Assembly (NCBI GenBank): GCA_944388405.1
Contig: CALXIQ010000004.1
Span: forward strand, 62,001-126,000
Origin: an uncultured Ruminococcus sp.
GTDB lineage: Bacteria; Bacillota; Clostridia; Oscillospirales; Ruminococcaceae
Direction: 5' to 3'
Length of the DNA stretch: 64,000 nucleotides
In this document: in pieces, positions 6,708 to 60,403 of the stretch
Layout: the number at the start of each line of letters is the position of its first letter
Numbering within the stretch: position 1 is the first letter of the stretch
Notes under the pieces: model-generated
Seen by the model: the letters and a program-made list of their open reading frames with translations, nothing else
The model's database searches: none
Told to the model about the DNA's origin: nothing
Made by a program: the position numbers and the translations under genes

Positions 6708-6714
6708 TAAATTT

Positions 6715-6830
6715 TACAAGTTTTCAGAGAGGGTCTGAAAGGCGGCGGGAATTTTAAACCTCGCTGTGGGGCGTCCCTCAGAGGGAGAGTAAAACCCGGT
6801 GGGACGTTCACTTGAATTAAGGGAGAGAAG
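6715..6830 (+). other. Hairpin-rich spacer between argG and a membrane protein gene
   Basis: Contains TTTCAGAgagggTCTGAAA (6722-6740) and an outer CGTCCC/GGGACG pair (about 6772-6806) enclosing CCCTCagaGGG. There is no clear T run, so this looks more like a processing or stability structure than a terminator. Confidence 0.4.
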
Positions 6831-6833
6831 AAT

Positions 6834-7367
6834 ATGCTGAAAAATCCGGTAGTAGCCATAGTGTTCAGGGTTGTTGTGTTGTTGACGGCGGTTTTTGCGG
6901 TTATCTGCCTTGTCAGCGTAATCTCGCTGGGCGTTACCGAAACGGGCAACGACGAGGCAATGTACGAAGCGTTAAGCCTGGCGTCAGATGTTTATGTTTT
7001 TATGACGGTGGGAGTTGTGGCGTCGCTGGTGTTAAGCGTTTTGTCCCAGTCGTTTTGCAGTAAGGTAAGTCTTGTGGCGAGAACCTTCTTTATTCTGGTG
7101 TGTACAGTTATGGCTTTGGTGGCGTTCAAGGCAAATTCTATTGTTGCAATGGCGTGCGATATTATTAATGAGTATGATTCTCTTGATTTCGTAACGGCGG
7201 AGGATCTTAACATCACTGCCGAGGAATTTGACGCAATAAGTAATTTTTCCGACAATCAGGCTATGATTTATATGATTGCGATTATGGTTATCTCAGTGGT
7301 ATTCGTAGTGCTGGGAATAACGTCAATTCACTATCTTGTTAAAAAGAAGAATAAGGTTCAGGCGTAA
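6834..7367 (+). CDS. Small hypothetical membrane protein in the arginine cluster
   Basis: 177 aa, no family recognised. About four hydrophobic segments are visible: residues 6-32 ([19 protein letters not shown]), 52-70, 80-102 and 139-162. An acidic loop (around 108-135, with [12 protein letters not shown]) lies between the third and fourth. The C-terminus is basic (KKKNKVQA). GGGAGAGAAG lies before the ATG. Its position between argG and argH suggests co-transcription, but nothing in the sequence links it to arginine metabolism or transport. Confidence 0.7.
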
Positions 7368-7400
7368 CAATAGTTTTAGGATTTTGTTGCGCAGTATGCT

Positions 7401-7426
7401 TAAACCACCACTCAAGTGGTGGTTTA
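7401..7426. repeat. Perfect palindrome upstream of argH
   Basis: A 26-bp palindrome: TAAACCACCACT (7401-7412) and its exact complement (7415-7426). There is no T run, so it is not a canonical terminator. It may modulate argH translation or act as an mRNA boundary. Confidence 0.6.
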
Positions 7427-7483
7427 ATGCTTATTGCGAATATAGGCTGTGTGAAAAAGTATAATAAAAGGCAGGTTGAAAAT

Positions 7484-8869
7484 ATGTCAGTTAAAATGTG
7501 GGCAGGAAGATTTACAAAGGAAATTGATGAAAGGGTAAACGACTTTAATTCGTCCATTTCCTTTGACGCAAGAATGTATAAGCAGGACATTGAAGGCTCT
7601 ATCGCTCATGCCACAATGCTGGGCGAGTGCGGAATAATTCCTATGGAGGAAAGCCGCAAAATCATAGAGGGTTTAAAAGGAATTCTTGCGGACATACAAT
7701 CGGGAAAGCTTGAATTTGACCCCACTGCGGAGGATATTCATATGTTTAACGAGGCGGAGCTGACCTCAAGAATCGGCGACGCAGGAAAAAGACTTCACAC
7801 CGCCCGTTCAAGAAACGATCAGGTGGCTCTCGATCTGAGAATGTATCTGAAGGTTGAGATAAAGGAAATTGAAAAGCTGGTAAAAGAGCTTATTGAAACC
7901 CTTACCGCACTTGCCGAAAAGAATCTTACTACGGTAATGCCGGGCTACACTCACCTGCAGAGGGCTCAGCCTATAACATTTGCTCACCATCTTATGGCGT
8001 ACGCTCAGATGCTGCTGAGGGACTTGGGCAGGCTTGAGGATACCTATAAGAGAACCAATATAATGCCCCTTGGAAGCGGAGCGTTGGCATCAACTACCTA
8101 TCCTATCAACAGGCAGAGGGTTTGCGATTTACTGGGCTTTGATGAGATAACCCAAAATTCGCTGGACGGCGTTTCTGACAGGGATTTCTGCATAGAGCTG
8201 GCGTCTGCAATCTCAATTCTTATGATGCATCTTTCAAGGTTTTCCGAAGAAATTATTATGTGGTGTTCCTGGGAGTTTAAATTTATCGAGCTGGACGATG
8301 CCTATGCTACCGGCTCGTCTATTATGCCGCAGAAGAAAAACCCCGACATAACCGAGCTTATAAGAGGCAAGACCGGCAGAGTGTACGGCGACCTGACCAC
8401 CCTGCTTACAATGATGAAGGGACTTCCTCTCGCTTACAACAAGGATATGCAGGAGGATAAAGAGGCTATTTTTGACGCAATTGATACCGTCAAGCTTTGT
8501 CTTTCCACCTTTATTCCAATGATTGAAACTATGAAGGTGCTGCCTGAAAATATGAGAAACGCAGCGGCAAAAGGCTTTATAAACGCCACCGACTGCGCCG
8601 ATTATCTGGTTAAAAAAGGCCTACCCTTCAGAGACGCATATAAGATAACCGGCACCCTGGTTCACACCTGCATTGAAAAGGGTCTTACCCTTGAAACTCT
8701 GCCCCTTGAGGAATACAAGGCGCTGTGCGACACCTTTGAGGAGGACGTTTACGACGCCATCAGCCTTGAAACCTGCGTAATGCAGAGAAAGGCGGCAGGC
8801 GGACCTGCTCCAGAATCGGTAAAGGCGCAGATAGAATATGTAAAGGCAAAGCTTAATGAACAGGCTTAG
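7484..8869 (+). CDS. argH: Argininosuccinate lyase
   Basis: 461 aa from ATG at 7484, with AAAGGCAGG upstream; a longer frame from 7427 lacks a ribosome site. It splits argininosuccinate to arginine and fumarate. Fumarase/aspartase superfamily marks are present: the N-terminal MWAGRF, the TARSRNDQ segment, the HLQRAQP active-site region with its histidine, and the signature [12 protein letters not shown]. It overlaps the next small gene by 14 nt. Confidence 0.97.
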
Positions 8870-9284
8870 GTCTTTGTTTGAAAATGATGTTCCGTCGGCT
8901 GCGGCGTATCTTATCTTATGGACAGGTATTTCCCTGGGAATTTTCTACGGTACAACAGAAATGACAACGTCGCTTATGCCTTTTATAATCGGGTTTTTGT
9001 TTGTTTATCCTATCTTTACTTTTTGCGCAGCATTCAGGTATACCAAGTACCACGGATTTAAGTGGTATTTTTATCTGGCAGCCACGGCGATAACGGTGGC
9101 GGAGTATTTTTTGCTGGGCTTTAACATGGTAGAGCCTGATTATATTGTTATGACAGCGGTTGCAATGTTTTTCGGCGGTGGACTTGGCAAACAGTTCGGC
9201 GTTGCGATTTCAAAGCCGAAGAGCAAAAAGCGGTCTAAGAAAGAAAAGGCAGAAAGGGAATACAAGAACATTCTTGACGAGTAA
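8856..9284 (+). CDS. Small hypothetical membrane protein overlapping argH
   Basis: 142 aa, no family recognised. Three or four hydrophobic segments fill residues 15-110, followed by a soluble tail rich in Lys, Glu and Arg ([18 protein letters not shown]). The ATG at 8856 lies inside the last codons of argH in another frame, which implies translational coupling. Together with the 177-aa protein at 6834 it makes two unrelated-looking small membrane proteins embedded in the arginine cluster. Function unknown. Confidence 0.7.
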
Positions 9285-9342
9285 GGCACGCAACAGGCTG
9301 ACAGAGCCTTGATAAATTCATATGCTAAAGGACTTGGTAAAT

Positions 9343-10290
9343 TTGAAAACTAAGGTTTTTATAGACGGAAAAGAGGGTACTACCGGGCTTCAGATAGTAG
9401 AAAGACTTGAAAACCGCAGCGACCTTGAAATACTGACAATTGACGAGGAAAAGCGCAAGGATATAAACGAGCGCAAAAGGCTTATAAATCAGTCTGACAT
9501 AACCTTTCTTTGTCTGCCCGACGCTGCGGCGAGAGAGGCTGTTGCATTGGCGGAAAATGAAAATGTGCGGATAATCGACGCATCCACCGCCCACAGAACT
9601 GCTCCCGGCTGGGATTACGGCTTTCCGGAGCTTTCAAGCGAGCACAGGGCAAGGATAGCCAGATCAAAAAGAGTGGCTAATCCCGGATGCTATGCAAGCG
9701 GATTTATAAGTCTGGTGTATCCCCTGGTAAAGGCGGGAGTGCTGCCGGAGGAATATCCCCTTACCTGCCATGCCGTTTCAGGCTACAGCGGCGGCGGAAA
9801 GAAAATGATAGCCGCAATGGAAAGCGACGAGAAGAGCAGTGAGATGTATTCGCCCAGACAGTACGCTTTAGGTCAGACTCACAAGCATTTGCCTGAAATG
9901 CAGGCGGTTTGCGGACTGAAATATCCGCCTATGTTCAACCCCATCGTTGACGATTATTACAGCGGCATGGTGGTAACAGTTCCGCTGATTTCAAGGGCGT
10001 TGAGCAAGAGATACACCCCAAATGATATTCATGAAATTCTGTCGGCTCACTATGAGGGACAAAGGTTTGTTAAGGTAATGGAGCTTGGGGGCAGTGAAAC
10101 TCTCCCCGATGGATTTCTGGCGGCAAACACCCTTGCCGGCACTAACGATATGCAGCTTTTTGTCTGCGGAAATGATGAGCATATTCTCCTTTGCTCACGC
10201 CTTGACAATTTGGGCAAGGGTGCTTCCGGCGCGGCAGTTCAGAACATGAACATCATGCTGGGAATCGACGAGGATAACGGGTTGGTTTAA
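9343..10290 (+). CDS. argC: N-acetyl-gamma-glutamyl-phosphate reductase, short (type 2) form
   Basis: 315 aa from TTG at 9343 with AAAGGA 10 nt upstream; ATG at 9322 has no ribosome site. NADPH-dependent reduction of N-acetylglutamyl phosphate, the third arginine step. It starts with KVFIDGKEGTTG, and the catalytic cysteine lies in VANPGCYASG. The protein is about 30 residues shorter than the common type 1 ArgC, and its degenerate nucleotide-binding N-terminus matches the type 2 family. A polysaccharide deacetylase gene separates it from argJ. Confidence 0.94.
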   Translation: MKTKVFIDGKEGTTGLQIVERLENRSDLEILTIDEEKRKDINERKRLINQSDITFLCLPDAAAREAVALAENENVRIIDASTAHRTAPGWDYGFPELSSEHRARIARSKRVANPGCYASGFISLVYPLVKAGVLPEEYPLTCHAVSGYSGGGKKMIAAMESDEKSSEMYSPRQYALGQTHKHLPEMQAVCGLKYPPMFNPIVDDYYSGMVVTVPLISRALSKRYTPNDIHEILSAHYEGQRFVKVMELGGSETLPDGFLAANTLAGTNDMQLFVCGNDEHILLCSRLDNLGKGASGAAVQNMNIMLGIDEDNGLV

Positions 10291-10333
10291 AATGCGATAA
10301 CACCCACCATTGCGGCAGGCAGGAGGAAGAAAA

Positions 10334-10990
10334 GTGGAAAAATACAATATCGACTACACGAAATACGATAAGCTGGCGGCTCTCACCTTTGACGACGGAC
10401 CAAACACTACCATAACTCCGCTGGTTATAGATATGCTTAAAAAATATAAGGTTGTAGGCTCGTTTTTCCTGGTAGGCAATTGCATAACCGAGCAGTCGGC
10501 GCAGATGGTTCGGGACGCTCGGGCTATCGGCTGTGAAATAGGTAATCATTCTCTTGCTCATGCCGATATGGCGAAAATGTCCGCCGATGAAGTTAAAAGG
10601 GACATAGCTGAAACCTCCCGGAAAATCGCCGATATAACCGGCATTTCCCCTGCCTTTTTCAGACCGCCTTACATTTCGGTAAGCGATACGATGTTTGAAA
10701 ATATAGATATTCCCTTTATTGCCGGAATAGGCGCAAACGACTGGGATCCGGAGGTTTCTGCAGAGGAAAGGGTAAGGCTGATACTTGACCGGGTAAAAGA
10801 CGGAGATATTATACTGCTTCACGATATGGAGAATAACTACGCTACCGTTGAGGCGCTTGACAGCATAATTCCACAGATGCTTAAGCAGGGCTACGGCTTT
10901 GTCACCGTTTCGGAGCTGTTTAAGGCCAAGGGCGTAGAACCGAAGAGAGGCATTGTTTATTCAAACGCCTTGCAGACGTCGGTGTATTAG
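10334..10990 (+). CDS. Polysaccharide deacetylase (NodB homology) family protein
   Basis: 218 aa from GTG at 10334, 5 nt after AGGAGGAAG. NodB-fold CE4 motifs are complete: TFDDGP (18-23, catalytic Asp and metal Asp), HSLAH (H72 and H76, metal ligands), RPPY and a C-terminal LLHD. CE4 enzymes remove N-acetyl groups from peptidoglycan or similar glycans. No signal peptide or membrane anchor is visible, so the protein may be cytoplasmic or leave by another route. It sits between argC and argJ on the same strand with small gaps. A role in the acetylated arginine pathway cannot be claimed. Confidence 0.9.
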   Translation: MEKYNIDYTKYDKLAALTFDDGPNTTITPLVIDMLKKYKVVGSFFLVGNCITEQSAQMVRDARAIGCEIGNHSLAHADMAKMSADEVKRDIAETSRKIADITGISPAFFRPPYISVSDTMFENIDIPFIAGIGANDWDPEVSAEERVRLILDRVKDGDIILLHDMENNYATVEALDSIIPQMLKQGYGFVTVSELFKAKGVEPKRGIVYSNALQTSVY

Positions 10991-11011
10991 TATGGAAACG
11001 AGGTAATTTAA

Positions 11012-12274
11012 ATGAAGAATTTTGACGGATATAAATATATTGACGGCGGAGTTTGCGCAGCTAAGGGCTTTAAGGCAAACGGCCTCTACTGCGGAATCAG
11101 AAAATCCCACAGCAACGGGATTCCCGGGGCTAATGTAAAGCCTGACCTGGGAATGGTGGTTTCGGATGTAATGTGCAATGCTGCAGGAGTTTACACTCAG
11201 AACAAGGTTAAGGGCGCACCCGTAATTGTAACAAAGAAAAACCTTGCAGCCACCGGCGGAAAAGCACAGGCGATTATTGTCAATTCCAAAAACGCCAACA
11301 CCTGCAACGCCGACGGCGAGGAAAAGGCGGAAAAAATGTGCTGCCTTACAGCGGAAGCTGTAGGAATCAAGCCGGAGGAGGTAATTGTGGCTTCAACGGG
11401 AGTTATCGGAGAGATTCTTCCCATAGAGCCTATTGAAAACGCCATGAACGACCTTACTGCAGGCTTATCCTACGACGGCAACGAAAAAGCTGCGACGGCT
11501 ATAATGACAACCGACACCTTTAAGAAAGAGGTTGCGGTGGAGTTTGAACTGGACGGCAAAACCTGCCGCCTTGGAGGAATGGGCAAGGGAAGCGGTATGA
11601 TACATCCGAATATGGCGACAACGCTGAATTTTATTACAACCGACTGCGCTGTTTCTGCCGAAATGCTTCAGAAGGCACTTTCCGAGGTCGTAAAGGTAAC
11701 ATACAACTGCCTTTCCATAGACGGAGATCAGTCTACCAACGATATGTGCATGGTCATGGCAAACGGTCTTGCGGGAAACGCTCAGATCGTTACCGAGGGG
11801 AAGGATTTTGATACCTTCAAGCAGGCTCTTTACATAGTGATGATGAATATTACAAGGCTGCTTGCCAAGGACGGCGAAGGCGCGACAAAGCTTATTGAAT
11901 GCACTGTTTCGGGAGCAAAGGATACTGACGCAGCGATAAAGGTCGCAAAAAGCGTTATCTGCTCAGCTCTTTTCAAGTCGATGATTTTCGGAGAGGACGC
12001 AAACTGCGGACGTATTTTCTGCGCTCTGGGTTATGCAGACGCTGAATTTGATGTAAGCGAAGTTGATGTTTATATGAGTTCTTCGGCAGGCAGGATAAAA
12101 GTGGGAGAAAAAGGTCTGGTGATCGGATATTCTGAGGAAGCCGCCGCAAAAATTCTTGCGCAGGATGAGATAGCAGTCGATATTTCTATCGGAGGCGGCA
12201 ACGGCAAAGCGACGGCATGGGGCTGCGATCTTACTTATGATTATGTAAGGATAAACGGAGATTACAGATCATAA
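11012..12274 (+). CDS. argJ: Bifunctional ornithine acetyltransferase / N-acetylglutamate synthase
   Basis: 420 aa. It transfers acetyl from N-acetylornithine to glutamate, recycling the acetyl group; bifunctional forms also use acetyl-CoA. The self-cleavage site is recognisable in GSGMIHPNMATTLNF, with Thr203 as the expected nucleophile after Ala202. Segments MGKGSG and DMCMVMANG are typical of the family. With ArgJ present and no argA or argE in the cluster, the pathway is of the cyclic type. ATG at 11012 follows a weak ACGAGG. Confidence 0.96.
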   Translation: MKNFDGYKYIDGGVCAAKGFKANGLYCGIRKSHSNGIPGANVKPDLGMVVSDVMCNAAGVYTQNKVKGAPVIVTKKNLAATGGKAQAIIVNSKNANTCNADGEEKAEKMCCLTAEAVGIKPEEVIVASTGVIGEILPIEPIENAMNDLTAGLSYDGNEKAATAIMTTDTFKKEVAVEFELDGKTCRLGGMGKGSGMIHPNMATTLNFITTDCAVSAEMLQKALSEVVKVTYNCLSIDGDQSTNDMCMVMANGLAGNAQIVTEGKDFDTFKQALYIVMMNITRLLAKDGEGATKLIECTVSGAKDTDAAIKVAKSVICSALFKSMIFGEDANCGRIFCALGYADAEFDVSEVDVYMSSSAGRIKVGEKGLVIGYSEEAAAKILAQDEIAVDISIGGGNGKATAWGCDLTYDYVRINGDYRS

Positions 12275-12324
12275 CCGCATGAGCAAGAAAGCTGCAAATA
12301 AATCACAAAAGGGAAGATGTTTAA

Positions 12325-13182
12325 ATGGAAATTTCTAATAGCATCAGAAGTCAGATACTTATCGATGCTTTGCCGTATATACAGAAATATCACGACAAGG
12401 TAGTTGTTATAAAATACGGCGGAAACGCAATGACCAACGACGCTTTGAAAGAAGCGGTTATGAGCGATATTGTTCTGCTTACCGAGGTAGGCATTAAGGT
12501 AGTGCTTGTTCACGGCGGCGGACCTGAAATTAACGCAATGCTCAAGCGTGTGGGAATTGAAAGCAGGTTTATAGGCGGACTGAGATACACCGACAGGGAA
12601 ACCATCGACATTGTAAAAATGGTTCTGTGCGGAAAGGTGAACAAGGAGCTTGTATCGGCGCTTCAGCTTTACGGCGGAAAGGCGCTTGGGTTGTGCGGCT
12701 GCGACGGTCAGATGATTCTTTCGGAAAAGCTTCAGGGAGACGTTGATCTGGGATATGTGGGCGAGATAAAAAAGGTAAACACAAAGCCTATTATCGATGC
12801 GCTTAACAACGGCTATGTTCCCATAATCGCCACAGTGGGTACTTCCGAGGACGGACAGGCTTATAATATAAACGCCGATACCGCCGCCGCAAGAATAGCC
12901 TCCTGCCTGAGGGCGGAAAAGCTTATTCTTATGACGGATATTGCCGGGCTTTTGCAGAATAAGGACGACGATTCAACGCTTATTCCTTTCGTTCAGGTAA
13001 GCGACGTTCCCTATCTGAAAAAGACGGGAATAATAAGCGGAGGAATGATACCAAAGATAGATTGCTGCGTTGAGGCGGTAAGGAGAGGGGTAAAAAGGAC
13101 GTCTATTATCGACGGCAGAGTACCTCATTCAATTCTTATCGAGCTGCTTACAAACGAGGGCATAGGAACTCAGTTTACTTGA
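12325..13182 (+). CDS. argB: Acetylglutamate kinase
   Basis: 285 aa, usual length. It phosphorylates N-acetylglutamate, the committed and often arginine-inhibited step. Amino-acid kinase motifs: KYGGNAM near the N-terminus, VHGGGPEIN for substrate binding, NINADTAAARIA and a late GGMIPK. ATG at 12325 is preceded by GGGAAG. Confidence 0.97.
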   Translation: MEISNSIRSQILIDALPYIQKYHDKVVVIKYGGNAMTNDALKEAVMSDIVLLTEVGIKVVLVHGGGPEINAMLKRVGIESRFIGGLRYTDRETIDIVKMVLCGKVNKELVSALQLYGGKALGLCGCDGQMILSEKLQGDVDLGYVGEIKKVNTKPIIDALNNGYVPIIATVGTSEDGQAYNINADTAAARIASCLRAEKLILMTDIAGLLQNKDDDSTLIPFVQVSDVPYLKKTGIISGGMIPKIDCCVEAVRRGVKRTSIIDGRVPHSILIELLTNEGIGTQFT

Positions 13183-13243
13183 TATATAAATTCAGCCCAC
13201 TGAGTGATATTTAGTTTGCGCAGTGGAGCGGAAAGGAATGATA

Positions 13244-14428
13244 TTGAAAATGAATACTATAGAGCAATTTAACGAGCATGTTATGTCAACCTACGGACGT
13301 TACGATGTGGTGCTTGAAAAAGGTGAAAGCAGAGTTGCGGTAGACGAAAACGGAAAAGAGTATATCGACTTCGGCTCGGGAATAGGCACAAACAGTCTGG
13401 GCTTTTGCGACGAGGACTGGGTTAAGGCAGTTTGCGACCAGGCGCATAAAATCCAGCATACATCAAATTACTACTACACAAAGGTTCAGGCTGATTTTGC
13501 ACAGAAGCTTTGCAGCCTTACCGGGTACAGCAAGATGTTTTTCGGTAATTCGGGTGCCGAGGCTAACGAGTGCGCAATAAAGCTTGCAAGAAAATACAGC
13601 TTTGATAAATACGGCAAAGACGCTGAGAGAAATATTATCATTACCCTTGTAAACAGCTTTCACGGTCGAACCATAGCCACCCTTTCCGCTACGGGACAGG
13701 AGGTTTTTCACAACTATTTCTTCCCCTTTGTGGGGGGCTTTGTAAACGTCAAAGCTAACGACATTGACGACTTGAAGGCAAAGCTTGAGGAAAACGACGG
13801 AAAAGTATGCGCTGTTATGTTTGAATATGTTCAGGGCGAGGGCGGAGTAATTCCTCTTGAGCAGAGTTTTGTGGACGCAATTTTTGAGGAGTGCGAAAAG
13901 CGGGATATTCTCACCATCAGCGATGAGGTTCAGACGGGAGTAGGCAGAACAGGCAAGCTGCTTGCGGGAGAAAATTTCGGCAGACACGCAAATATCTGCA
14001 CCCTTGCCAAGGGTCTTGCAGGCGGTATCCCCATAGGTGTTTGTCTTGCGGACGAAAAGTGCTGCGATGTGCTTACGCCCGGAACTCACGGCTCAACTTT
14101 CGGAGGAAATCCTATAGCCTGCGCAGGAGGAAACGCAGTGCTTGACAAGGTTTCAAGTGAGGGCTTCCTTGACGAGGTAAACAAAAAAGCGGAGTATTTC
14201 AGAGCAAAGCTTTCGGAAATCCCCGAAGTGGAAGGCGTTGACGGTCTTGGGCTTATGATAGGCGTAAGACTTAAAACCAAAAAAGCGGGTGAGGTTTGCA
14301 AGGAATGTCTTGAAAACGGACTGCTTATTCTCACTGCAAAGGACAAGCTGAGATTCCTGCCGCCCCTTACAATTTCATATGAAGATATTGACAAGGGCAT
14401 TGAAATTCTTAAAAAGGTGCTGAGCTGA
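13244..14428 (+). CDS. argD: Acetylornithine aminotransferase
   Basis: 394 aa from TTG at 13244, 6 nt after AAAGGA; ATG at 13250 (12-nt spacing) is the main alternative. PLP enzyme that converts N-acetylglutamate semialdehyde to N-acetylornithine with glutamate as donor. Class III aminotransferase marks: FFGNSGAEANE, SFHGRT, DEVQTGVGRTGK and the PLP lysine in TLAKGLAGGIPIG. Placed between argB and argF, so the arginine role is much more likely than another omega-aminotransferase function. Confidence 0.95.
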   Translation: MKMNTIEQFNEHVMSTYGRYDVVLEKGESRVAVDENGKEYIDFGSGIGTNSLGFCDEDWVKAVCDQAHKIQHTSNYYYTKVQADFAQKLCSLTGYSKMFFGNSGAEANECAIKLARKYSFDKYGKDAERNIIITLVNSFHGRTIATLSATGQEVFHNYFFPFVGGFVNVKANDIDDLKAKLEENDGKVCAVMFEYVQGEGGVIPLEQSFVDAIFEECEKRDILTISDEVQTGVGRTGKLLAGENFGRHANICTLAKGLAGGIPIGVCLADEKCCDVLTPGTHGSTFGGNPIACAGGNAVLDKVSSEGFLDEVNKKAEYFRAKLSEIPEVEGVDGLGLMIGVRLKTKKAGEVCKECLENGLLILTAKDKLRFLPPLTISYEDIDKGIEILKKVLS

Positions 14429-52229: not shown

Positions 52230-52587
52230 GGGGGCGTAAAGGTTTCGACGGGGATTCTGAAGCACGATAAGCGAGTAGAGGAGCGCACTCTCTTTAAACG
52301 GCGTACGTTTTAAAATTAAACGACAACGATAATTTTGAATTAGCAGCTGCTTAATGCTGCTCGTCTTACCTTTGAGTACCACGGCTTAGGTTAAGGCGTC
52401 GATTAGTGGTGAACGTCACTGAGCAAAGGCTGTAGCTCTTTGATGTATTACAGTCTACCGATAATTTCCGCCTGCTTGTTTGCGGATTTTAAAGGGAAGC
52501 GGAGCAATCCACAATAACAAGCTACACTCGTAGAAATTCGTGGGGATGGGTTTTCGGACAGGAGTTCGATTCTCCTCGCCTCCACCA
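52230..52587 (+). ncRNA. ssrA: Transfer-messenger RNA (tmRNA)
   Basis: 5' end GGGGGCGTAAAGGTTTCGACGG pattern, shown by its G5-C-G start and GGTTTCGACGG, and 3' end TTCGATTCTCC and CGCCTCCACCA with encoded CCA; the 7-bp acceptor stem (52230-52236 with 52577-52583) pairs fully with one G-U. The tag frame most likely runs 52301-52354 and ends NDNDNFELAAA before TAA TAA-type context. It rescues stalled ribosomes with SmpB. The 3' terminal CTCCACCA is the insertion target of the element that follows. Confidence 0.96.
52580..52587 (+). repeat. Left attachment-site repeat (attL core) at the ssrA 3' end
   Basis: CTCCACCA, the last 8 nt of tmRNA, identical to 60099-60106 at the far end of the element. 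Confidence 0.7.
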
Positions 52588-52667
52588 AACAGGTATAAAG
52601 TGAACACCTACTACTTGAAAAATGCCTTTGTAGTAACGGTTTGGCTTTAATACCTACATAAAAAATC

Positions 52668-52702
52668 AGCGGTTAAGGTGTAAATCCTCAACCGCTTTTT
52701 TT
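52668..52702. terminator. Bidirectional terminator at the left end of the element
   Basis: AGCGGTTAAGG pairs with CCTCAACCGCT, T7 on the plus side and A-rich on the other. It ends the leftward operon and may insulate ssrA. Confidence 0.75.
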
Positions 52703-52707
52703 GTTGC

Positions 52708-52947
52708 TTATCGGTTAGTTTCGATAAAGTATTTTACAAGGTCAGGCAAAATGCCCTGCCGTGATACATCACCGATAAATGATACATCGGTTATCTTTGG
52801 CGGTGTCTTGCCGTTGGTGTAAAAGTTCAAAACATCAATAATCTTTAACCGTTCTTTTCTTCCGTCATTGTATGTAATATCAGCCCACACATCACGGAAA
52901 AACTCTTTTTCAAGGTCTGTAAGTCTTTTAATTATCGGCTTGTTCAT
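52708..52947 (-). CDS. Small element-encoded protein, RLxxLE head
   Basis: 79 aa, MNKPIIKRLTDLEKEFFRD at the start, then a compact beta-rich looking region with an ERLKIIDVLNFY segment. No family recognised. Its first residues repeat the pattern I/V-I/L-x-R-L-x-x-L-E also found in the two genes upstream (52928 and 53118). Overlaps the upstream gene by 20 nt. Confidence 0.6.
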   Translation of the reverse strand: MNKPIIKRLTDLEKEFFRDVWADITYNDGRKERLKIIDVLNFYTNGKTPPKITDVSFIGDVSRQGILPDLVKYFIETNR

Positions 52948-53155
52948 AAGCTATCCTCTCAATTCTGTTCAAAATTCTTTGCACATCGTCAAGGCTGTTC
53001 CCACTTATTACACGGATAAAGCTTGCGTTTGGATTTGCTGCAAGCTCGTCAACAGAACATTCCTTTTCCACACCGTCAAAGTTTGCGAGAATGACAAGCC
53101 TATCAGGTGAAATTTCTTCAAGCCTTTTCAGCCTTTGAATTATGCTGTTCGTCAT
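52928..53155 (-). CDS. Small element-encoded protein, RLxxLE head
   Basis: 75 aa, MTNSIIQRLKRLEEISPDRL at the start followed by VILANFDGVEKECSVDELAANP and a helical end (QRILNRIERIAYEQ). The middle looks like a small alpha/beta fold with one Cys. Second of three consecutive small proteins sharing the same N-terminal helix. It overlaps both neighbours, so translation is coupled. Function unknown. Confidence 0.6.
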   Translation of the reverse strand: MTNSIIQRLKRLEEISPDRLVILANFDGVEKECSVDELAANPNASFIRVISGNSLDDVQRILNRIERIAYEQADN

Positions 53156-53267
53156 CTGCTATTGTTTCCTCTCCGAAAATTTCTCTTTCATACATTGAAA
53201 TATCTTCAATTTCGATTGTCTCGTCATTTTCCAACATTTCAAGGCGTTTCAATACATCTTTTTTCAT
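53118..53267 (-). CDS. 49-residue acidic element-encoded protein, RLxxLE head
   Basis: ATG at 53267, read MKKDVLKRLEMLENDETIE and on through a very acidic stretch (DISMYEREIFGEE) to TGA at 53118. The ATG is part of TAATG with the stop of the 218-aa gene upstream. First in translation order of three small proteins with the same N-terminal motif. No family recognised. Confidence 0.55.
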   Translation of the reverse strand: MKKDVLKRLEMLENDETIEIEDISMYEREIFGEETIADDEQHNSKAEKA

Positions 53268-53923
53268 TAGTCGCTCACCGTGATATAGATGTTTTCTGCT
53301 TCGGAAAAAATCCTGTCTGCCTGTTCATCATATACCTTTGCTATACCGTCCGAAAGTCCTCTATCCTCACGCATAGCCTTTTGCCCCCACATAATAAGAG
53401 TGTCAAGATGTTCATTGTACGGTATGCGATAATCTTTATATTGTGTACCGATAGCAAACAGCTCATTGTCCTTTTCTTCCTTGCCTCTTTTATAGGCATA
53501 ATCTCCGATAATACGGAGCATTGCGGAATTGCCGTTAAAATCGTTTATAAGTGCCTTAATTTCGTCAGGTCGCAAAATACCACTCTTTAACAATTCAACT
53601 GTTGCAAGGTCAACCTTTTTTCCTGTTGCTCGGTCATATTCACCGAAAACCGCCTCACATTCAGCCTTGATTTTTTCATATTCAGCATTGGTATTATTGA
53701 TGAGTTCAGAAAGTTGCTTTTTGATTTCTGCTTTGTTTTTCTGATATGTTTCGGTGTCCTCTTTCTGAAATTGAGGATTTGCCCACCCTCTTTCAATATC
53801 ACGCTTTCTCAATGCCTCAATTTTATCAAGTCTATCATTCAAGAGGGTATATTCTTCTCTTGCTTTGTTGTATGTATCTCTGATTTTAGTCAAAAATTCT
53901 GTTACATTTCTATATTGTGCCAT
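53267..53923 (-). CDS. Element-encoded coiled-coil protein of unknown function
   Basis: 218 aa. The N-terminal 115 residues are strongly helical with heptad-like spacing (FLTKIRDTYNKAREEYTLLNDRL and EIKKQLSELINNTNAEYEKIKAE). A second helical part follows, with an NSAMLRIIGDYAYKRG segment. No motif of known function. The gene lies directly downstream of the small-terminase-like HTH gene. A scaffolding or packaging role is possible but not shown. Confidence 0.65.
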   Translation of the reverse strand: MAQYRNVTEFLTKIRDTYNKAREEYTLLNDRLDKIEALRKRDIERGWANPQFQKEDTETYQKNKAEIKKQLSELINNTNAEYEKIKAECEAVFGEYDRATGKKVDLATVELLKSGILRPDEIKALINDFNGNSAMLRIIGDYAYKRGKEEKDNELFAIGTQYKDYRIPYNEHLDTLIMWGQKAMREDRGLSDGIAKVYDEQADRIFSEAENIYITVSD

Positions 53924-53944
53924 AATTCAAAATCTCCTTATAAT

Positions 53945-54307
53945 TTAATTATTCATACTTTTTTCCAGTTCTTCAATTCTTGAAATTATATCTGCCTGTT
54001 CGGTGTACTTCAAGCAATTTTGCAATATCAGGGCAGAGGCATTTAATCGCACCTGAGGAGCGGTGTCCGTATCTTCCATAATGCCCCTGATTGTGTCAAC
54101 CGCCTTTGTCAATGTAGCCTGTAATGAATTACAAGCCTCATTCAATACAAGTGAACGCCTGCGGTCATATTCTGCCTTGAATGTTTCATCTGCAAGCCTG
54201 TTGTAAATTGTGGTACGGCTAACGCCTGAAATTTTCTCTGCCTCTGCTATGCTCCCACAGGATAACAGAGCGGTCAAGATGTGTTCGTCTTTTGGTTTCA
54301 ATTCCAT
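53945..54307 (-). CDS. HTH protein of small-terminase/phBC6A51 type
   Basis: 120 aa. The N-terminal helix-turn-helix is clear: HILTALLSCGSIAEAEKISGVSRTTIYNRL in outline, with core GSIAEAEKISGVSRTTIYN, followed by EFKAEYDRRR-like basic residues and a long helical C-terminus (LKYTEQADIISRIEELEKS) suited to oligomerisation. Similar HTH proteins are annotated as phage terminase small subunits or mobile-element regulators. In satellites, a TerS of its own redirects packaging. AAGGGGTGA precedes the ATG. Confidence 0.65.
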   Translation of the reverse strand: MELKPKDEHILTALLSCGSIAEAEKISGVSRTTIYNRLADETFKAEYDRRRSLVLNEACNSLQATLTKAVDTIRGIMEDTDTAPQVRLNASALILQNCLKYTEQADIISRIEELEKSMNN

Positions 54308-54311
54308 TCAA

Positions 54312-54644
54312 TCACCCCTTATTGTGTAAACTTTTTCGCTGATATGTAAAAATCTTGTTTGCCGTCTTGTCATATACTCGCAAGCCTGACGGAATAATCT
54401 CGATTTTTATTGTTTCGGTGTCAACCGTTGTATAAGGCTCGGAAACGCTTTCAGAACACTTTACATGGACGGAGCGGAAAGAGTATTCCTTATCTGCTAC
54501 AAGGTCAGAAACAAGCATTATATTGCCCTCTCGTGTGATTGTAACGCTATCACTCTGATATAGTGTTTTCGGCTCGTTGTTGCACCCTGCAAACAACATC
54601 AAACACACAGAAACAAGCAACGCAAAAGCAACTTTATTCTTCAA
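54312..54644 (-). CDS. Small element-encoded lipoprotein
   Basis: 110 aa. Lipoprotein signal with lipobox LFAGC (Cys about 20), then a small beta-rich domain (LYQSDSVTITREGNIMLV). No family recognised. Surface lipoproteins on mobile elements sometimes act in superinfection or phage exclusion; that is only a possibility here. It overlaps the 49-aa coiled-coil gene upstream by 11 nt. Confidence 0.65.
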   Translation of the reverse strand: MKNKVAFALLVSVCLMLFAGCNNEPKTLYQSDSVTITREGNIMLVSDLVADKEYSFRSVHVKCSESVSEPYTTVDTETIKIEIIPSGLRVYDKTANKIFTYQRKSLHNKG

Positions 54645-54783
54645 CTGTATTCACTCCCTTTTTGAGTTCTCGTATTTCGGCTTTTAGTAGATTGATTTCT
54701 TTTCTTTGCTCATTCCATTTATGCTCCCATTGTTTGATTTTATCATTCAAAAGGTCTATGAGCATTTTGTCATAGTCTGTCAT
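54634..54783 (-). CDS. 49-residue coiled-coil micropeptide
   Basis: ATG at 54783 with GAGGTG upstream, stop at 54634. The chain is almost all charged helix: KMLIDLLNDKIKQWEHKW then EINLLKAEIRELKKG, typical of a short coiled coil. It overlaps the lipoprotein gene by 11 nt. No family recognised. Confidence 0.55.
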   Translation of the reverse strand: MTDYDKMLIDLLNDKIKQWEHKWNEQRKEINLLKAEIRELKKGVNTVEE

Positions 54784-54788
54784 CTTTT

Positions 54789-55001
54789 TCACCTCGCTAA
54801 CATTTGGATTTGTTTATTATTCAAAAATTTTCGTTTGCGTATATAGTCAACGGCTTCATCATATTCAGGAAAATAATGTCCGTTCCCTGCAAACTGTACG
54901 CACCATTCAGCATAATCAGGCGGTGAATAGTCTTGTATTCTTTGCAACCACACTATACAACCCTTATGCGTGCATATTTTCTCTTGTGATAGAATAACCA
55001 T
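54789..55001 (-). CDS. 70-residue element-encoded protein
   Basis: ATG at 55001 after GAGAGGTG; a start at 55061 would run through the iterons and is rejected. Sequence MVILSQEKICTHKGCIVWLQ, with Cys at CTHKGC and a later WCVQFAGNGHYFP. No family recognised. First gene downstream of the candidate origin. Confidence 0.55.
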   Translation of the reverse strand: MVILSQEKICTHKGCIVWLQRIQDYSPPDYAEWCVQFAGNGHYFPEYDEAVDYIRKRKFLNNKQIQMLAR

Positions 55002-55019
55002 TGTTTCACCTCTCTGTCG

Positions 55020-55133
55020 GTTACAGAGGTTACAAGAGTTACGCATTTTTCCATAGAACATATAAACATAAATATATTATTTTATTTTTTTAGATACTCC
55101 ATAGAAATTACTGTAACCCGTGTAACCTGTAAC
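55020..55133. other. Candidate replication origin: inverted iteron clusters around an AT-rich core
   Basis: GTTAC at 55020, 55029 and 55038 (9-bp period), and its reverse complement GTAAC at 55113, 55122 and 55129. Between them lies an almost pure A/T stretch (about 55043-55107). It lies 7 nt after the primase/helicase stop. SaPI origins have the same plan: short-repeat clusters flanking an AT-rich region next to the rep gene. Confidence 0.6.
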
Positions 55134-55139
55134 CGTATA

Positions 55140-57206
55140 TTAAATATGATGGACAAAATTATAATTGCGTTTCGGTAGCACTCTCAATCTTTGAGTTTTG
55201 CCGTCAAACTTTCGGATTTCTGCGTTATATCCCATTTTATCAAGCACTTTTCCGATTTGTGCAGAGGAATAGGCTCGGAGTTCATCGGAGTATAACTGCT
55301 TAAAATCTGTAACGGTCATATATAACCACTCGATTTTATACCTTGCATTATCGGATTGATTGAGAATGTCCTCAATTTCGTTTTCGCCTTTGAGTTTCTT
55401 TTCGTGATTGGCGTTTCTCTCTGCAAGTTGCTTTTGTTCAGCCTGTGTCAATCTAAATCCTTGAATATCATTCAATGCCATTTGCTCGATTTGTTTCCAC
55501 AACTGCACGGCATTAAAATCACGCAAGCGGTCAAGGTCAATTTTATCAATTCTAACCGTCATAAATCTTCTATTTCCAGTTCGGTCGAGAAGAAATTCAT
55601 CACTATTACAAGTACCGCAAAGGCTTGTCCTGCGTATCGCTCTGATACTGTCCCTGCCGTATGGACGGCGGTACTCGTCAACGGAATTTGTGATAAACGC
55701 TTTCAGGCGTTCAATATCGCTTCTGAATGTGCTTTCGATTTCGCCCATTTCAGCTATCCAACAGGACAGAGCTTTTATATAACTGTCCTTATCTCTAAAA
55801 TCAATGCAAACGCCCTCTTTGAAAAACTGCGGTTTTAGTGCTAACTTTCGGAAAAGAGAGGTTTTGCCAATTCCTTGTTTACCTGTGATTACAAGAACGC
55901 CATCTGCTCCGAATGGCTCTGTTTCATCGTTATGTAACAGGGATATGCTTTGCCATAACCATTTTTTAATGAGTGTACGGCTCAATTCGTCATCATCGGC
56001 AATATGTAGAATGGAATACAATTCCGAAAGATAGTCCCTGCCGTCATATTCGTATGAGTTCAGCAATTCAATCACAGGATTGTATCTGTTACGGCTTGCC
56101 ACTATGTCAAGGTATGCGGATATAATTTGCATATTGCACCGCTTGTAATTGTCCTGTAACTCACTATACAGAATGGCTGATATATTGGAATGCAAACGCT
56201 CTTGACTTTCGCCCTGCATACCCTCGATGTCAACAAGCTGTGTAACATCGTTTAACCGTACTGTAACGCCGTTTTCGGTCAGGTAGTCGGATAATACTTC
56301 GGGTGTAAATAAATCGCTTGTATCGTCTTTTTGAGGCTCTTTTCTTGGTCTGCCTCTGCCTTTGTAATACTCGCCCCCACATAGAGCAACCGCCTTTGAT
56401 ATTGTTGCTTCTCGATAGTCTGCACGCTCCCATTTTTGACGGTATAAAGCACTACCTCGAAAAGCTGTGTCAATGGCGTTTGTATCGCCTTGTAGATAGA
56501 ATGCAAGTATATTACAAAGGGCTATGTCTGCGGAGCTTTCATCGTTGTTATACGCCGATATATCGCCCCTGTCATATAAAGCAATAAACTTTGCACCGGT
56601 CTTTGATTTCCTTGCTATATCAAGTATATTTTTACTCAATCGTTCACCGCCTTTATACATATACTTTTCTATGAAATATAGGATTTCTTCGGTCTTGTCC
56701 TTTATTGTTTCGGTGTCGGATACTCTATCACCTGTAAATGTAAAATATCTGTTTGTTAATCCGCTGAAATAACATTCAAGCCCATTTTTCGGATTTTTTT
56801 GATAATACTTTGTATCAAGTTTTTTCGCTCCGTTCTTGTTTGTGGTCTGGGGTATTCTTGACATATCGCACTTGAACAGAATATGAAAACCGTTTCCGCT
56901 TGGGCTTCTTTCGATATATGTACCCTCAAACAGTTTCAGTATTTCATCTTGGAGCGGATTTGCCTGTGTGTGTCCGTCTGTTCCGTCAATATCAATTCCG
57001 CAAATACCATTTGCAAACACAAAACCAATACCGCTATACTTGGGCTTGGATTTTTCTGATACAGAATAATCACTCCAGGTTGACGGTAAATCGGTCTTTG
57101 CTTTACCGCCTGTTTTTGCGTTATATGGTATCTTTGTCGGTCTGCCGTCTTTGTCGGTTTCATAACGCCAACATAACCACACACTTTGAGATTTCAAGTC
57201 AGTCAA
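55140..57206 (-). CDS. Primase-polymerase / VirE-type helicase replication protein
   Basis: 688 aa. The N-terminal prim-pol-like domain starts SVWLCWRYETDKDGRPTKIPYN and holds the acidic catalytic pattern GIDIDGTDG and RSPSGNGFHILF. A linker follows, then a VirE/SF3-like ATPase with Walker A ITGKQGIGKTSLF (about 439-448) and the VirE segment DEFLLDRTGNRRFMTV. It probably primes and unwinds the element during its own replication. It overlaps the 46-aa gene upstream by 8 nt. Confidence 0.88.
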   Translation of the reverse strand: MTDLKSQSVWLCWRYETDKDGRPTKIPYNAKTGGKAKTDLPSTWSDYSVSEKSKPKYSGIGFVFANGICGIDIDGTDGHTQANPLQDEILKLFEGTYIERSPSGNGFHILFKCDMSRIPQTTNKNGAKKLDTKYYQKNPKNGLECYFSGLTNRYFTFTGDRVSDTETIKDKTEEILYFIEKYMYKGGERLSKNILDIARKSKTGAKFIALYDRGDISAYNNDESSADIALCNILAFYLQGDTNAIDTAFRGSALYRQKWERADYREATISKAVALCGGEYYKGRGRPRKEPQKDDTSDLFTPEVLSDYLTENGVTVRLNDVTQLVDIEGMQGESQERLHSNISAILYSELQDNYKRCNMQIISAYLDIVASRNRYNPVIELLNSYEYDGRDYLSELYSILHIADDDELSRTLIKKWLWQSISLLHNDETEPFGADGVLVITGKQGIGKTSLFRKLALKPQFFKEGVCIDFRDKDSYIKALSCWIAEMGEIESTFRSDIERLKAFITNSVDEYRRPYGRDSIRAIRRTSLCGTCNSDEFLLDRTGNRRFMTVRIDKIDLDRLRDFNAVQLWKQIEQMALNDIQGFRLTQAEQKQLAERNANHEKKLKGENEIEDILNQSDNARYKIEWLYMTVTDFKQLYSDELRAYSSAQIGKVLDKMGYNAEIRKFDGKTQRLRVLPKRNYNFVHHI

Positions 57207-57339
57207 TAACTATCACCGCCCTTTTTTCTTCCTCTAAAAATGCTAAATATTCCTCTTGATGATTTGCTATGTATTCAGCAATATCGGAATAGATAGAGAG
57301 AGCAATTTCTCTTGCTTGCTTCTTTGATATTTCAATCAT
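57199..57339 (-). CDS. 46-residue helical protein between XRE and primase genes
   Basis: ATG at 57339, MIEISKKQAREIALSIYSDI, one long amphipathic helix region and an acidic/basic end. Overlaps both neighbours by 8 nt (XRE upstream, primase downstream), so the three are one translational unit. A longer frame from 57483 is an artefact across the XRE gene. Function unknown. Confidence 0.55.
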   Translation of the reverse strand: MIEISKKQAREIALSIYSDIAEYIANHQEEYLAFLEEEKRAVIVID

Positions 57340-57532
57340 TTTCGCCCTCTCCCTCTGCGAATAGCACCGCCTCATCAATCTGCAAAAACTCCGATATTTT
57401 TCTTTTGTATTTCGGATAGAATGGCTTTGTACCATTAAACGCACAATACAAGTCGCTCGGTGTAATTCCTGCGTTGAGAGCAAGCTGTAATTTTGATATG
57501 TTCCTTTCCTTTAACACATCTAAAAGTTTCAT
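57332..57532 (-). CDS. XRE-type helix-turn-helix regulator
   Basis: 66 aa: MKLLDVLKERNISKLQLALNAG start, HTH core LQLALNAGITPSDLYCAFNG, acidic end. It resembles the small cro/excisionase-like regulators at the head of satellite replication operons. It is divergent from the recombinase operon across a 160-bp control region with two palindromes. Confidence 0.75.
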   Translation of the reverse strand: MKLLDVLKERNISKLQLALNAGITPSDLYCAFNGTKPFYPKYKRKISEFLQIDEAVLFAEGEGEND

Positions 57533-57548
57533 TGTTATTCACTTTCCA

Positions 57549-57568
57549 AAAGTAGCTACTCTTTTGTA
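57549..57568. promoter_or_regulatory. Palindrome near the XRE start
   Basis: AGTAGCTACT (57551-57560) inside a larger CAAAAG..CTTTTG context (57547-57566). Likely operator for the XRE protein or another element regulator. Confidence 0.45.
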
Positions 57569-57621
57569 TAGATTTAGATAAGCCTCATCTATGATTTAAT
57601 TATACAATAGTCAACAGCCTA

Positions 57622-57650
57622 TTGACATTGTAAGTTGGTTATGGTATAAT
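57622..57650 (+). promoter_or_regulatory. Predicted promoter of the DUF6076-recombinase operon
   Basis: TTGACA (57622-57627), 17-bp spacer, TATAAT (57645-57650). Confidence 0.75.
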
Positions 57651-57669
57651 TATTTATAGAGTAACCAAC
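57634..57669 (+). promoter_or_regulatory. Operator-like inverted repeat over the recombinase promoter
   Basis: GTTGGTTA (57634-57641) and TAACCAAC (57662-57669), a perfect 8-bp inverted repeat that brackets the -10 box. A repressor here would block recombinase transcription. Confidence 0.6.
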
Positions 57670-57692
57670 ATTTGAGAATGGAGCAATACAAT

Positions 57693-58619
57693 ATGGCGAT
57701 GTTTCAAACAGAAAAGAATTATTATTTGACTGTGATACAGCAACACCCAAAAAGAAAATCAAAAAAAGAGTATTCAATTTCTGTCGGTGAGATTGGAAAA
57801 GATGTTAGTTTTGATATAAAAGATAATTTGTTTGGTAATGGGTTTTTGAATGCAGATTTTTCATCTTATGATGAATTTAAAAAATCCTCGTTATATAATG
57901 CGTTCTATCCTTTTAGTGAAGAGGATTTTAATTCTGCACAAACTATGCTTGCAAATTTAGGCGACGATTTATCCCTTGATTATTTGGAATGGTTTTTTGA
58001 ATTTGAAAACATCAGTTTTGTTTCAAGCGTGGGATATGCACGGATAGACCAAAACAGAGATGACGGAAATATCTATTACAACTATAATTTAGGCATAATA
58101 GAGGATTTAATAAAATCAGGTGAGGACGAAAATGTATCTCTAAAATCAATATATGATGAGGTAGCTTCAACAAAATTCACTTTAAAATCTTATCAGTTTA
58201 AATGTCATAATCTGAACGAATTACTGTGTGCAGAGCTGTATTTTTATCTATCGGAAGGCTTTAAGTTCAAAGTATGTAAACATTGTGGAAGATTGTTTCC
58301 TACAAAAAACGGTAATATAGATTATTGCGATAGAAACAGCCCACTTGAAAGATATTCACACCTAAAATGCGTTGAGGCTCAACAACGATTGAGAAAAAAT
58401 AGCGGTGTCAATCACCCATTAAAAAAGAGATTTAATGTATTATCCTCTACGCTTGATAGGCTCATAGACCAAAAAGGCTTGCCGATTGAAGAAAAGCGAA
58501 TTTTTCTTGAAACAGCAAAGATAATCAGAAAAACAAAAACAGATGAAGAATATAGTCAATGGCTATTTGAACAGGAATTAAAATATAAACCAAGTGCAAA
58601 AAAGGCGGTGTCAAAATGA
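57693..58619 (+). CDS. DUF6076-like protein with CxxC zinc-knuckle motif
   Basis: 308 aa from ATG at 57693, 9 nt after GGAG; ATG at 57678 is possible. The C-terminal half has a conserved metal-knuckle pattern: VCKHCGRLFPTKNG then DYCDRNSP and a later LKC. The N-terminal half is unremarkable. Such proteins are often found beside recombinases of clostridial elements. It overlaps the recombinase start by 4 nt (ATGA), so both are made together. It could be a regulator or recombination helper. Confidence 0.6.
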   Translation: MAMFQTEKNYYLTVIQQHPKRKSKKEYSISVGEIGKDVSFDIKDNLFGNGFLNADFSSYDEFKKSSLYNAFYPFSEEDFNSAQTMLANLGDDLSLDYLEWFFEFENISFVSSVGYARIDQNRDDGNIYYNYNLGIIEDLIKSGEDENVSLKSIYDEVASTKFTLKSYQFKCHNLNELLCAELYFYLSEGFKFKVCKHCGRLFPTKNGNIDYCDRNSPLERYSHLKCVEAQQRLRKNSGVNHPLKKRFNVLSSTLDRLIDQKGLPIEEKRIFLETAKIIRKTKTDEEYSQWLFEQELKYKPSAKKAVSK

Positions 58620-60181
58620 ATGTAGTTATATATGCTCGTTTTTCCTCACACTCACAGAATGAACAAAGTATTGAGGGACAACTTAAAACTTGTTATGAGT
58701 TCGCAAACAAACAAGGATATACTGTCATTGCCGAATACATAGACAGAGCTTTATCAGGTACAACGGATAACCGCCCTCAATTCCTTAAAATGATTGAGGA
58801 TAGCAATAAAAAGCATTTTGACGGCGTTCTCGTTTATCAGTTAGATAGATTTGCTCGTAACCGTTATGATAGTGCAACCTACAAGGCAAAACTAAAAAAG
58901 AATGGTGTCAGAGTGTATTCCGCTCGTGAGAATATCACAGATGACGCAAGCGGTATTCTCGTTGAGGGCTTGCTTGAAAGTATGGCTGAATACTATTCCG
59001 CTGAATTATCACAAAAAATAAGGCGTGGTATGGATATAAACGCCGAAAAGTGTCTTTGCACAGGCGGTTATCCTGCACTTGGATATAAAATCATTGATAA
59101 GCAGTTTTATATTGATGAGGCAACCGCTCCGATAGTTCAACAGATATTTGAGTTATACGCAAGCGGTAAAACCGTTGTTGAAATATGCGATATTCTCAAC
59201 GCACAGGGTTATAAAACCTCTCGTGGCGTGGCGTTCAATAAAAATTCATTACGGACGATTTTACAAAATAAAAGATATATCGGTATCTACACATATAAGG
59301 ATAAAGAAATACCTGACGGAATACCTCGTATTATTGATGATGATTTGTTTTATAAGGTCGCTCGAATAATGGAAACAAATAAAAAAGCCCCTGCAAAAGC
59401 AAAGGCAAAAGAGGAATATTTACTGACTACAAAATTATTCTGCGGTCATTGTAAAGAAATGATGAGAGGGTACGGCGGTACAGGTAAACTCGGCAAACAT
59501 TATCATTATTACGCTTGCAACGGCAAAATCAAAAAGGTATGTGATAAAAAGTTAGTCGATAAAGATTATATCGAAAACCTTGTTATTTCTGAATGTCGCA
59601 AGCTTTTAACAGATGAGAACATACAAAGGATTGCTCGTGAAGTTGTGGCTCTTTGCGAAAAAGAACAGGATAACTCAAATTATAAACGCTTGCAAAAGCT
59701 TTTAAAAGAGAACACACGCAAACAGGGGAATGTCGCAAGTGCTATTGCTGAATGCGGTGAGGAAAGTGTCCGCAAGTTGATGTATGAGCAAGTTGTAAAA
59801 TTACAGAATGAGAGAGCGGAAATAGAAAAGCAGTTCGCCATTGAAAAAGCAAGTCAAGTGCATTTGACGGTAACTGATATTAAGTTTTTCCTCAAACAAT
59901 TACAAAAAGGAAAAGCGGACGATATAAGATACAGGAAAACTCTCATCAATGTATTTGTGAATGCTATATACTTGTATGATGATAAAATATCCTTTATTTT
60001 CAATAGCGGAGATACGCCGATAACTATTGATGATAAGCTGTTATCGGATATTGAGGCAGACAATAAAGAGTTTGAGTGTTCATTTTTAGAACAGTCCGCT
60101 CCACCAGTCCTGAGCGCGGACGGCGCAATATCAATCCGCTCGCGGTGCTCGCTTCGTTTTGTATGGGCTATCGGTTCGTAA
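58616..60181 (+). CDS. Large serine recombinase (site-specific integrase)
   Basis: 521 aa. Resolvase N-domain with catalytic Ser10 in YARFSSHSQ, arginines in DRFARNRYD and SARENITDD, then the Recombinase domain (PALGYKI start), a zinc ribbon (LFCGHCKEMM and later ACNGKIKKVC) and a coiled coil (about 355-420). It catalyses integration at ssrA and, with a helper, excision. The frame runs through attR: residues up to SAPP are element DNA, and the last about 25 come from the host flank. Confidence 0.93.
   Translation: MNVVIYARFSSHSQNEQSIEGQLKTCYEFANKQGYTVIAEYIDRALSGTTDNRPQFLKMIEDSNKKHFDGVLVYQLDRFARNRYDSATYKAKLKKNGVRVYSARENITDDASGILVEGLLESMAEYYSAELSQKIRRGMDINAEKCLCTGGYPALGYKIIDKQFYIDEATAPIVQQIFELYASGKTVVEICDILNAQGYKTSRGVAFNKNSLRTILQNKRYIGIYTYKDKEIPDGIPRIIDDDLFYKVARIMETNKKAPAKAKAKEEYLLTTKLFCGHCKEMMRGYGGTGKLGKHYHYYACNGKIKKVCDKKLVDKDYIENLVISECRKLLTDENIQRIAREVVALCEKEQDNSNYKRLQKLLKENTRKQGNVASAIAECGEESVRKLMYEQVVKLQNERAEIEKQFAIEKASQVHLTVTDIKFFLKQLQKGKADDIRYRKTLINVFVNAIYLYDDKISFIFNSGDTPITIDDKLLSDIEADNKEFECSFLEQSAPPVLSADGAISIRSRCSLRFVWAIGS
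60099..60106 (+). repeat. Right attachment-site repeat (attR core)
   Basis: CTCCACCA, identical to the ssrA 3' end at 52580-52587, inside the recombinase frame. Confidence 0.7.
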
Positions 60182-60403
60182 CCGTCAAGGGGAGTTTGAC
60201 GGGAGCATATGTATGCACAAGGTTTGCCTCGACGGTCAGAAATCGTCGAGGAAAGCGAATATATGGGACTAATCCGTTATCACTTTGTGGTAGCGGATTC
60301 TTAATTTGCATATTCATTCCGGTTGGGGCAACAAACTTACTGTATTATCAAACCAAGTGAGCGTTAGCAAACGGCTCGCATATTGCGCCGTCCGCGCCAG
60401 GAC
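60107..60403. repeat. About 300-bp non-coding element with 24-bp terminal inverted repeats
   Basis: Left arm 60107-60131 and right arm 60380-60403 are inverted copies with one inserted A. Inside are CCTCGACG/CGTCGAGG, CCGTCAA/TTGACGG and AATCCGTTATCAC/GTGGTAGCGGATT hairpins. The last resembles the terminator just outside (60404-60441). MITE-like, with no transposase or clear target duplication. Its left arm begins exactly at attR, so it is probably the original flank of ssrA. Confidence 0.55.

Follow-up and report, generated by a model that had tools for sequence, protein, structure and literature searches.

Gene content and boundaries of the element

In the window (the whole 64,000-nucleotide stretch analysed here, from contig CALXIQ010000004.1 of an uncultured Ruminococcus sp.), we found an integrated element of 7,519 bp at positions 52588–60106, directly downstream of an intact ssrA gene. 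The tmRNA is full length (Rfam RF00023, 159.8 bits, model positions 1–374), and an 8-bp direct repeat, CTCCACCA, bounds the element at 52580–52587 (the ssrA 3' end) and at 60099–60106; the element starts right after the terminal CCA of ssrA and ends at 60106. These are exactly the coordinates given in a preliminary description of this DNA, and the AT-richness that it claimed holds as well (G+C ~0.32–0.43 inside the element versus 0.43–0.47 in most flanking windows). The features of the locus are:

52230..52587, + strand: ssrA (tmRNA), the integration target, whose 3' end is regenerated by the element
52580..52587, + strand: attL core CTCCACCA, the ssrA 3' end, placed from the sequence and the empty sites L059, L063 and L123
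52588..52650, + strand: attP right arm, 20 codons and a stop that continue the frame of the large serine recombinase (LSR) in the circular form (NRYKVNTYYLKNAFVVTVWL, then stop)
52708..52947, – strand: 79-aa protein, kept in all close relatives
52928..53155, – strand: 75-aa protein, kept in all close relatives
53267..53923, – strand: 218-aa all-helical protein, downstream of terS; L050–L052 have a 25%-identical 229-aa form instead
53945..54307, – strand: TerS-like 120-aa protein (phrog_2538, 6.2e-8; satellite-phage matches)
54312..54644, – strand: 110-aa putative lipoprotein or membrane protein, upstream of terS
54789..55061, – strand: 90-aa protein
55018..55135, no strand: candidate replication origin, with three GTTAC iterons per orientation around an A+T-rich stretch
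55140..57206, – strand: 688-aa primase-helicase (prim-pol-like N-terminus, NrS-1 HBD, VapE-like helicase)
57332..57532, – strand: 66-aa XRE/HTH regulator, with weak HTH matches
57672..58619, + strand: DUF6076 protein (Pfam 3.7e-9), a proposed regulator, with a 4-bp overlap with the recombinase gene start
58616..60181, + strand: LSR in its integrated-state reading; the chromosome encodes what follows residue 497 (from 60107 on)
60099..60106, + strand: attR core CTCCACCA, within the recombinase frame; L054 departs from the window exactly after 60106

The LSR matches Resolvase (6.6e-31), Recombinase (5.4e-22) and Zn-ribbon (1.1e-8) in Pfam and phrog_95 (3e-115) in PHROGs, and the primase-helicase has VapE-like (3.7e-50) and NrS-1 HBD (5.1e-18) matches in Pfam and PHROGs. 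The gene layout is as previously described, with the LSR and DUF6076 genes on one strand and the XRE regulator, primase, iterons and small genes on the other. When we scanned ten element proteins against Pfam and PHROGs, we found no convincing capsid, portal, lysis, relaxase or secretion protein, which bears out the gene absences claimed earlier; the capsid-forming genes of a cf-PICI are likewise missing from these ten proteins, and no capsid-redirecting gene was recognised among the element proteins. For the 218-aa protein, a PADLOC match to PD-Lambda-1 was weak (1.3e-4, 19 bits) and is not credited, and its predicted fold has no informative PDB match. The 110-aa protein is found at the same place upstream of terS in L107, L110 and L111.

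Following the primase gene, three direct and three inverted GTTAC repeats lie within 130 bp. None of 500 first-order simulations reached six GTTAC repeats in any 130-bp stretch, so the iteron region noted earlier is real, and five relatives keep the array, L051 with four copies and the others with six each. The VapE-type primase-helicase would replicate the circular form of the element from these adjacent iterons.

In two sister species of the same genus (L059 and L063), we found the empty site, where ssrA is followed directly by the right-flank sequence of the element and alignments span the junction by 21–23 bases. The LSR end of L054 is 98.6% identical to window positions 57079–60106, and the L054 MAG has both junctions: one contig carries the right junction of a filled site and another carries ssrA joined to the same right flank, an empty site. 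The left element end is absent from that assembly, and several of our comparisons are bounded by MAG contigs. These sites in L059, L063 and the L054 MAG are the empty ssrA sites in relatives that the preliminary description had proposed looking for. In G008, the trkA flank lies away from ssrA and gave no empty site. The recombinase of the full-length element is present as a single copy in its genome. The element was mobile in the recent past and, like a PICI, is a discrete island with att repeats and with empty sites in relatives; the LSR would excise it and integrate it at the ssrA 3' end.

To the right of the element, at window positions 60107–60397, lies a dispersed repeat, GTCCTGAGCGCGGACGGCGCAATAT..., that also occurs in L003, L006, L007, L059 and L063. 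Its ends, at 60114 and 60380, are perfect inverted repeats of 18 bp. Other copies in this genome sit immediately next to tRNA gene 3' ends, and in sister species the repeat lies directly after ssrA.

Exchange of the integrase cassette among related elements

We found close relatives of the primase-helicase at six loci, and the same core, from the primase to the 79-aa gene, recurs at 80–97% DNA identity in elements that use a tyrosine integrase and sit at the 3' end of rpsI. In L049, L050 and L051, a 379-aa tyrosine integrase replaces the LSR, and these elements end in rpsI with att repeats of 13–17 bp at its 3' end. In L052 and L053, the same core lies beside rpsI and the sequence ends before the integrase. 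DNA identity with the tyrosine-integrase relatives runs from 52656–52658 to ~57220–57235 and then stops, so the exchange takes in all that lies beyond the primase start towards the integrase, together with the first 70 bases after ssrA; judged from these limits, the exchanged part is the integrase, the regulators and attP. Since the same core occurs with a tyrosine integrase at rpsI, integrase and attachment site form an exchangeable cassette. Such satellites change their chromosomal address by keeping a nearly identical replication-packaging core and swapping the integrase-attP cassette between recombinase superfamilies. In the IMG/VR sequence L055, the TerS protein is identical and the terS region is 92.8% identical but the replication gene is different, so that module is exchangeable too. 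The L055 satellite (468–13739), a tyrosine-integrase element, shares its contig with TerL and portal genes of a prophage a few kb away; it is not beside rpsI and adjoins DUF262-like and type II restriction genes.

Related LSRs are carried by satellites of two other genera, L103 and L110 (70% and 66% identical). L103 follows ssrA directly. The recombinase gene of L110 contains the same core, and in its genome 175 bp separate the end of ssrA from a contig edge. Further LSRs of the clade (in G019, G200, G170, G356 and G178) lie ~11–58 kb downstream of ssrA on the same strand, so ssrA targeting is a property of the recombinase clade and not of satellites alone. The preliminary description had proposed a satellite family that uses a serine integrase and the tmRNA 3' end. 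Its satellite reading and the ssrA site stand, but a serine integrase does not define the family, as near-identical cores use a tyrosine integrase at rpsI, and ssrA targeting, which holds for this element, belongs to an LSR clade that larger elements also carry.

DUF6076 adjoins the integrase in the window and in L050, L051, L054, L106, L109 and L110, and it is present in L176. In L055, L103, L105, L112, L114, L115 and two Streptococcus satellites, an XRE-type or other DNA-binding regulator is found there instead, and in none of these elements do DUF6076 and such a regulator both lie beside the integrase. The position of DUF6076 is equivalent to that of the XRE repressors of other satellites, which suggests a role in satellite master regulation; the DUF6076 and XRE genes would control the switch in place of an Stl-type repressor.

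TerS and the satellite interpretation

The 120-aa protein matches the terminase small subunit family phrog_2538 (6.2e-8 in PHROGs), and its 38 matching records in the phage collection are 35 Streptococcus satellite phages, 2 human-fecal scaffolds and 1 Clostridioides phage, the last a weak match. The HTH protein that the preliminary description had called small-terminase-like thus groups with satellite-phage proteins and small terminases, and not only with regulators. Between the window and L049, terS has 10 nucleotide differences and no amino-acid changes; by this comparison, TerS is under strong purifying selection. The predicted TerS model is confident (pLDDT 84.9) and rests on six near-identical sequences, because scans with three TerS homologues gave no relatives. 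Its PDB matches are weak (best E 0.18), with the phage protein 2ao9 and the NV1 small terminase 7joq appearing at E >0.1; against viral structures, small terminases recur among the named matches.

Across 13 further genomes of the family, no TerS homologue shares its contig with a strong TerL match (the TerS contig of G230 has a TerL match of 23 bits only), and all 13 genomes have a strong TerL match elsewhere. The islands around these homologues have an integrase, a regulator, a rep gene and TerS in most cases, across genera. In the genome of the window (G000), a candidate helper prophage on contig 18 (78000–96339; L172) has TerL, portal, major head and tape-measure genes, and the other prophage contigs of the host encode no close relative of TerS. 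The element TerS would divert the TerL and heads of such a helper phage for its own packaging. The contig 18 prophage sits at a contig end, and a second TerL match, interrupted by a stop, lies on contig 7 (150176–151612).

L176 (MT837714) is a 6.3-kb human fecal phage record from Mexico with DUF6076, rep-like genes, TerS and a homologue of the 229-aa protein; it is probably another satellite of the same family, and virus-like particles are a possible source of it. Its description fits a study in which such particles from Mexican children were sequenced (PMC8361208), although tracing the accession did not lead to that study. L174 (7664–14188), L175 (7349–13895) and L095 (MT837364) have TerS of the same family and no TerL nearby, together with genes for a sigma factor-like protein and for a tail tape measure (phrog_1068, 5e-219 in L174; phrog_1535, 3e-34 in L095); these elements resemble satellites equipped with a tape measure of their own.

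Taken together, these data support the interpretation of the element as a satellite. We consider it very probable that it is an integrative PICI-like phage satellite with an LSR at ssrA, VapE-type replication from iterons, a TerS that diverts helper packaging, a DUF6076/XRE switch, an exchangeable integrase-attP cassette and a split LSR tail; its induction and packaging would depend on a helper phage. Judged by its anatomy, the element works like a PICI, and it documents PICI-like satellites in uncultured gut Clostridia. It has an integrase, a divergent regulator and a primase/rep gene with an iteron origin, and it has terS without terL, portal or capsid genes; the integrase is a serine recombinase and not the usual tyrosine enzyme, and the candidates for an Stl-like master repressor are the DUF6076 gene and the weak 66-aa HTH gene only.

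A prophage remnant in decay, in which integrase, replication and terS genes happen to survive, would also be small and lack structural genes, and remnants are common. However, many elements and genera share this compact gene order, there are no frameshifts, selection on TerS is strong, the site is polymorphic with empty copies, and the matches are to satellite phages rather than ordinary phages; a remnant is very improbable. We regard as scarcely more probable an integrative mobilizable element that moves by conjugation and whose HTH protein is a regulator and not TerS. Conjugative elements of Clostridia often carry LSRs and DUF-type cargo, and TerS-like HTH folds overlap with those of regulators, but no relaxase was found among the proteins scanned, the 120-aa protein matches TerS families, and VapE-type replication with iterons is as in PICIs. 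The preliminary description had named conjugation or structural genes in fuller copies as evidence against a satellite, and none is recognisable in L049–L054, L103 and L110.

Among known satellites, SaPIs have an iteron-type origin. The element shares with PICIs and SaPIs the integrase, divergent regulators, primase-helicase, iteron-type origin, terS and places of the accessory genes, but has a serine integrase at ssrA, DUF6076 in place of an Stl-type repressor and no recognised capsid-size gene. In the Gram-positive PICI/SaPI layout, including S. thermophilus StCI, accessory genes lie beside int and after terS (PMC13376191). The closest named TerS relatives are in Streptococcus satellite phages of the Javan series (30–36% identity, 35 records), which have the same int-regulator-rep-terS order; the two that we examined, Javan147 and Javan343, differ in having tyrosine-type integrases and other replication genes. 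The PLE of Vibrio cholerae is a satellite that uses a large serine recombinase (PMC6002521). Our element resembles PLE in recombinase class; PLE differs in being a satellite of the lytic phage ICP1 with a helper-encoded directionality factor and another target site.

A split C-terminal tail in the large serine recombinase

In the integrated element, attP lies within the LSR gene and the frame passes through the core into the chromosome; circularisation would therefore restore a conserved C-terminal tail and integration would remove it. The predicted attP junction of the circle is CAGTCCGCTCCACCA joined to AACAGGTATAAA. When we rejoined the element ends, a conserved 20-residue LSR C-terminus was restored in five or six elements, for which integration swaps in chromosome-encoded residues. 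The restored tails, each followed by a stop, are NRYKVNTYYLKNAFVVTVWL in the window, IRVINKPYFFKNGFAITVWL in G029, NGVLDKPYYLKDGFVITVWL on two contigs of G186, NGHYMNTYFFKGGFAVRVWL in G019 and EQYWMNTFFFCGGFAAKVMI in G356. In G170, the sequence after ssrA reads NRYWTNTYFFSGGFAVKCSL, and the LSR there has an internal stop that leaves its frame uncheckable. At the core, G029 and G186 are read in another frame; their right arms are shorter by one base, and this brings the tail back into frame. Differences between tails total 53, 81 and 108 at codon positions 1, 2 and 3, the third being the most variable. No restored tail was found in G200, G178, G070 and some other clade members, nor on the IMG/VR contigs L126–L128, which carry related LSRs. 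From these sequences, a coding reading of the restored tail is likely.

We tentatively suggest that a serine integrase is switched at its C-terminus by integration. The tailed recombinase of the circle may suit one direction or lifetime, and integration would strip the tail and alter activity or stability, so that the element's own insertion sets the state of its recombinase, making it a bacterial serine-family counterpart of archaeal suicidal integrases. Placing attP inside the integrase gene makes the cassette self-contained, as discussed for those archaeal integrases (PMC8371274), and such a compact int-attP cassette may spread between satellites and other elements, changing target site. 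Such a switch, dependent on integration, would be open to testing, and serine recombinases are in use for genome engineering. Equally, the element may be a satellite whose split tail is a mere by-product, the sequence after attP being kept as recombinase-binding DNA and the tail having no function, a reading to which we give somewhat less than an even chance. The arms of LSR attP sites are conserved DNA near the core, the third-position excess is modest, and G200, G178 and G070 lack the tail. However, the conserved stretch reaches ~60 bp from the core, compared to a usual half-site of ~25 bp, the stop codon is kept although it varies between TAA and TGA, and the two other-frame elements keep the frame through their shorter right arms.

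The Mx8 integrase is a tyrosine recombinase, as are the archaeal enzymes, and the comparable BPs protein is a repressor, whereas here a serine recombinase on a satellite is concerned and only ~20 terminal residues are exchanged. In Mx8 IntP, archaeal suicidal integrases and the mycobacteriophage BPs repressor, attP lies in a coding gene and integration alters the C-terminus (PMC6070905, PMC8371274, PMC4557955). Our literature search, in a limited collection, returned no paper on satellites with LSRs or serine integrases with attP inside int, which does not prove novelty. Two LSRs of the same clade, in L128 (9072–10610) and L140 (1501–3000), end in LVEAGGVEPPSENVS... and LVEATGLEPAASTSRT, which look like antisense readings of tmRNA or tRNA 3' ends and suggest oppositely oriented integration, in which the gene extends into the target.
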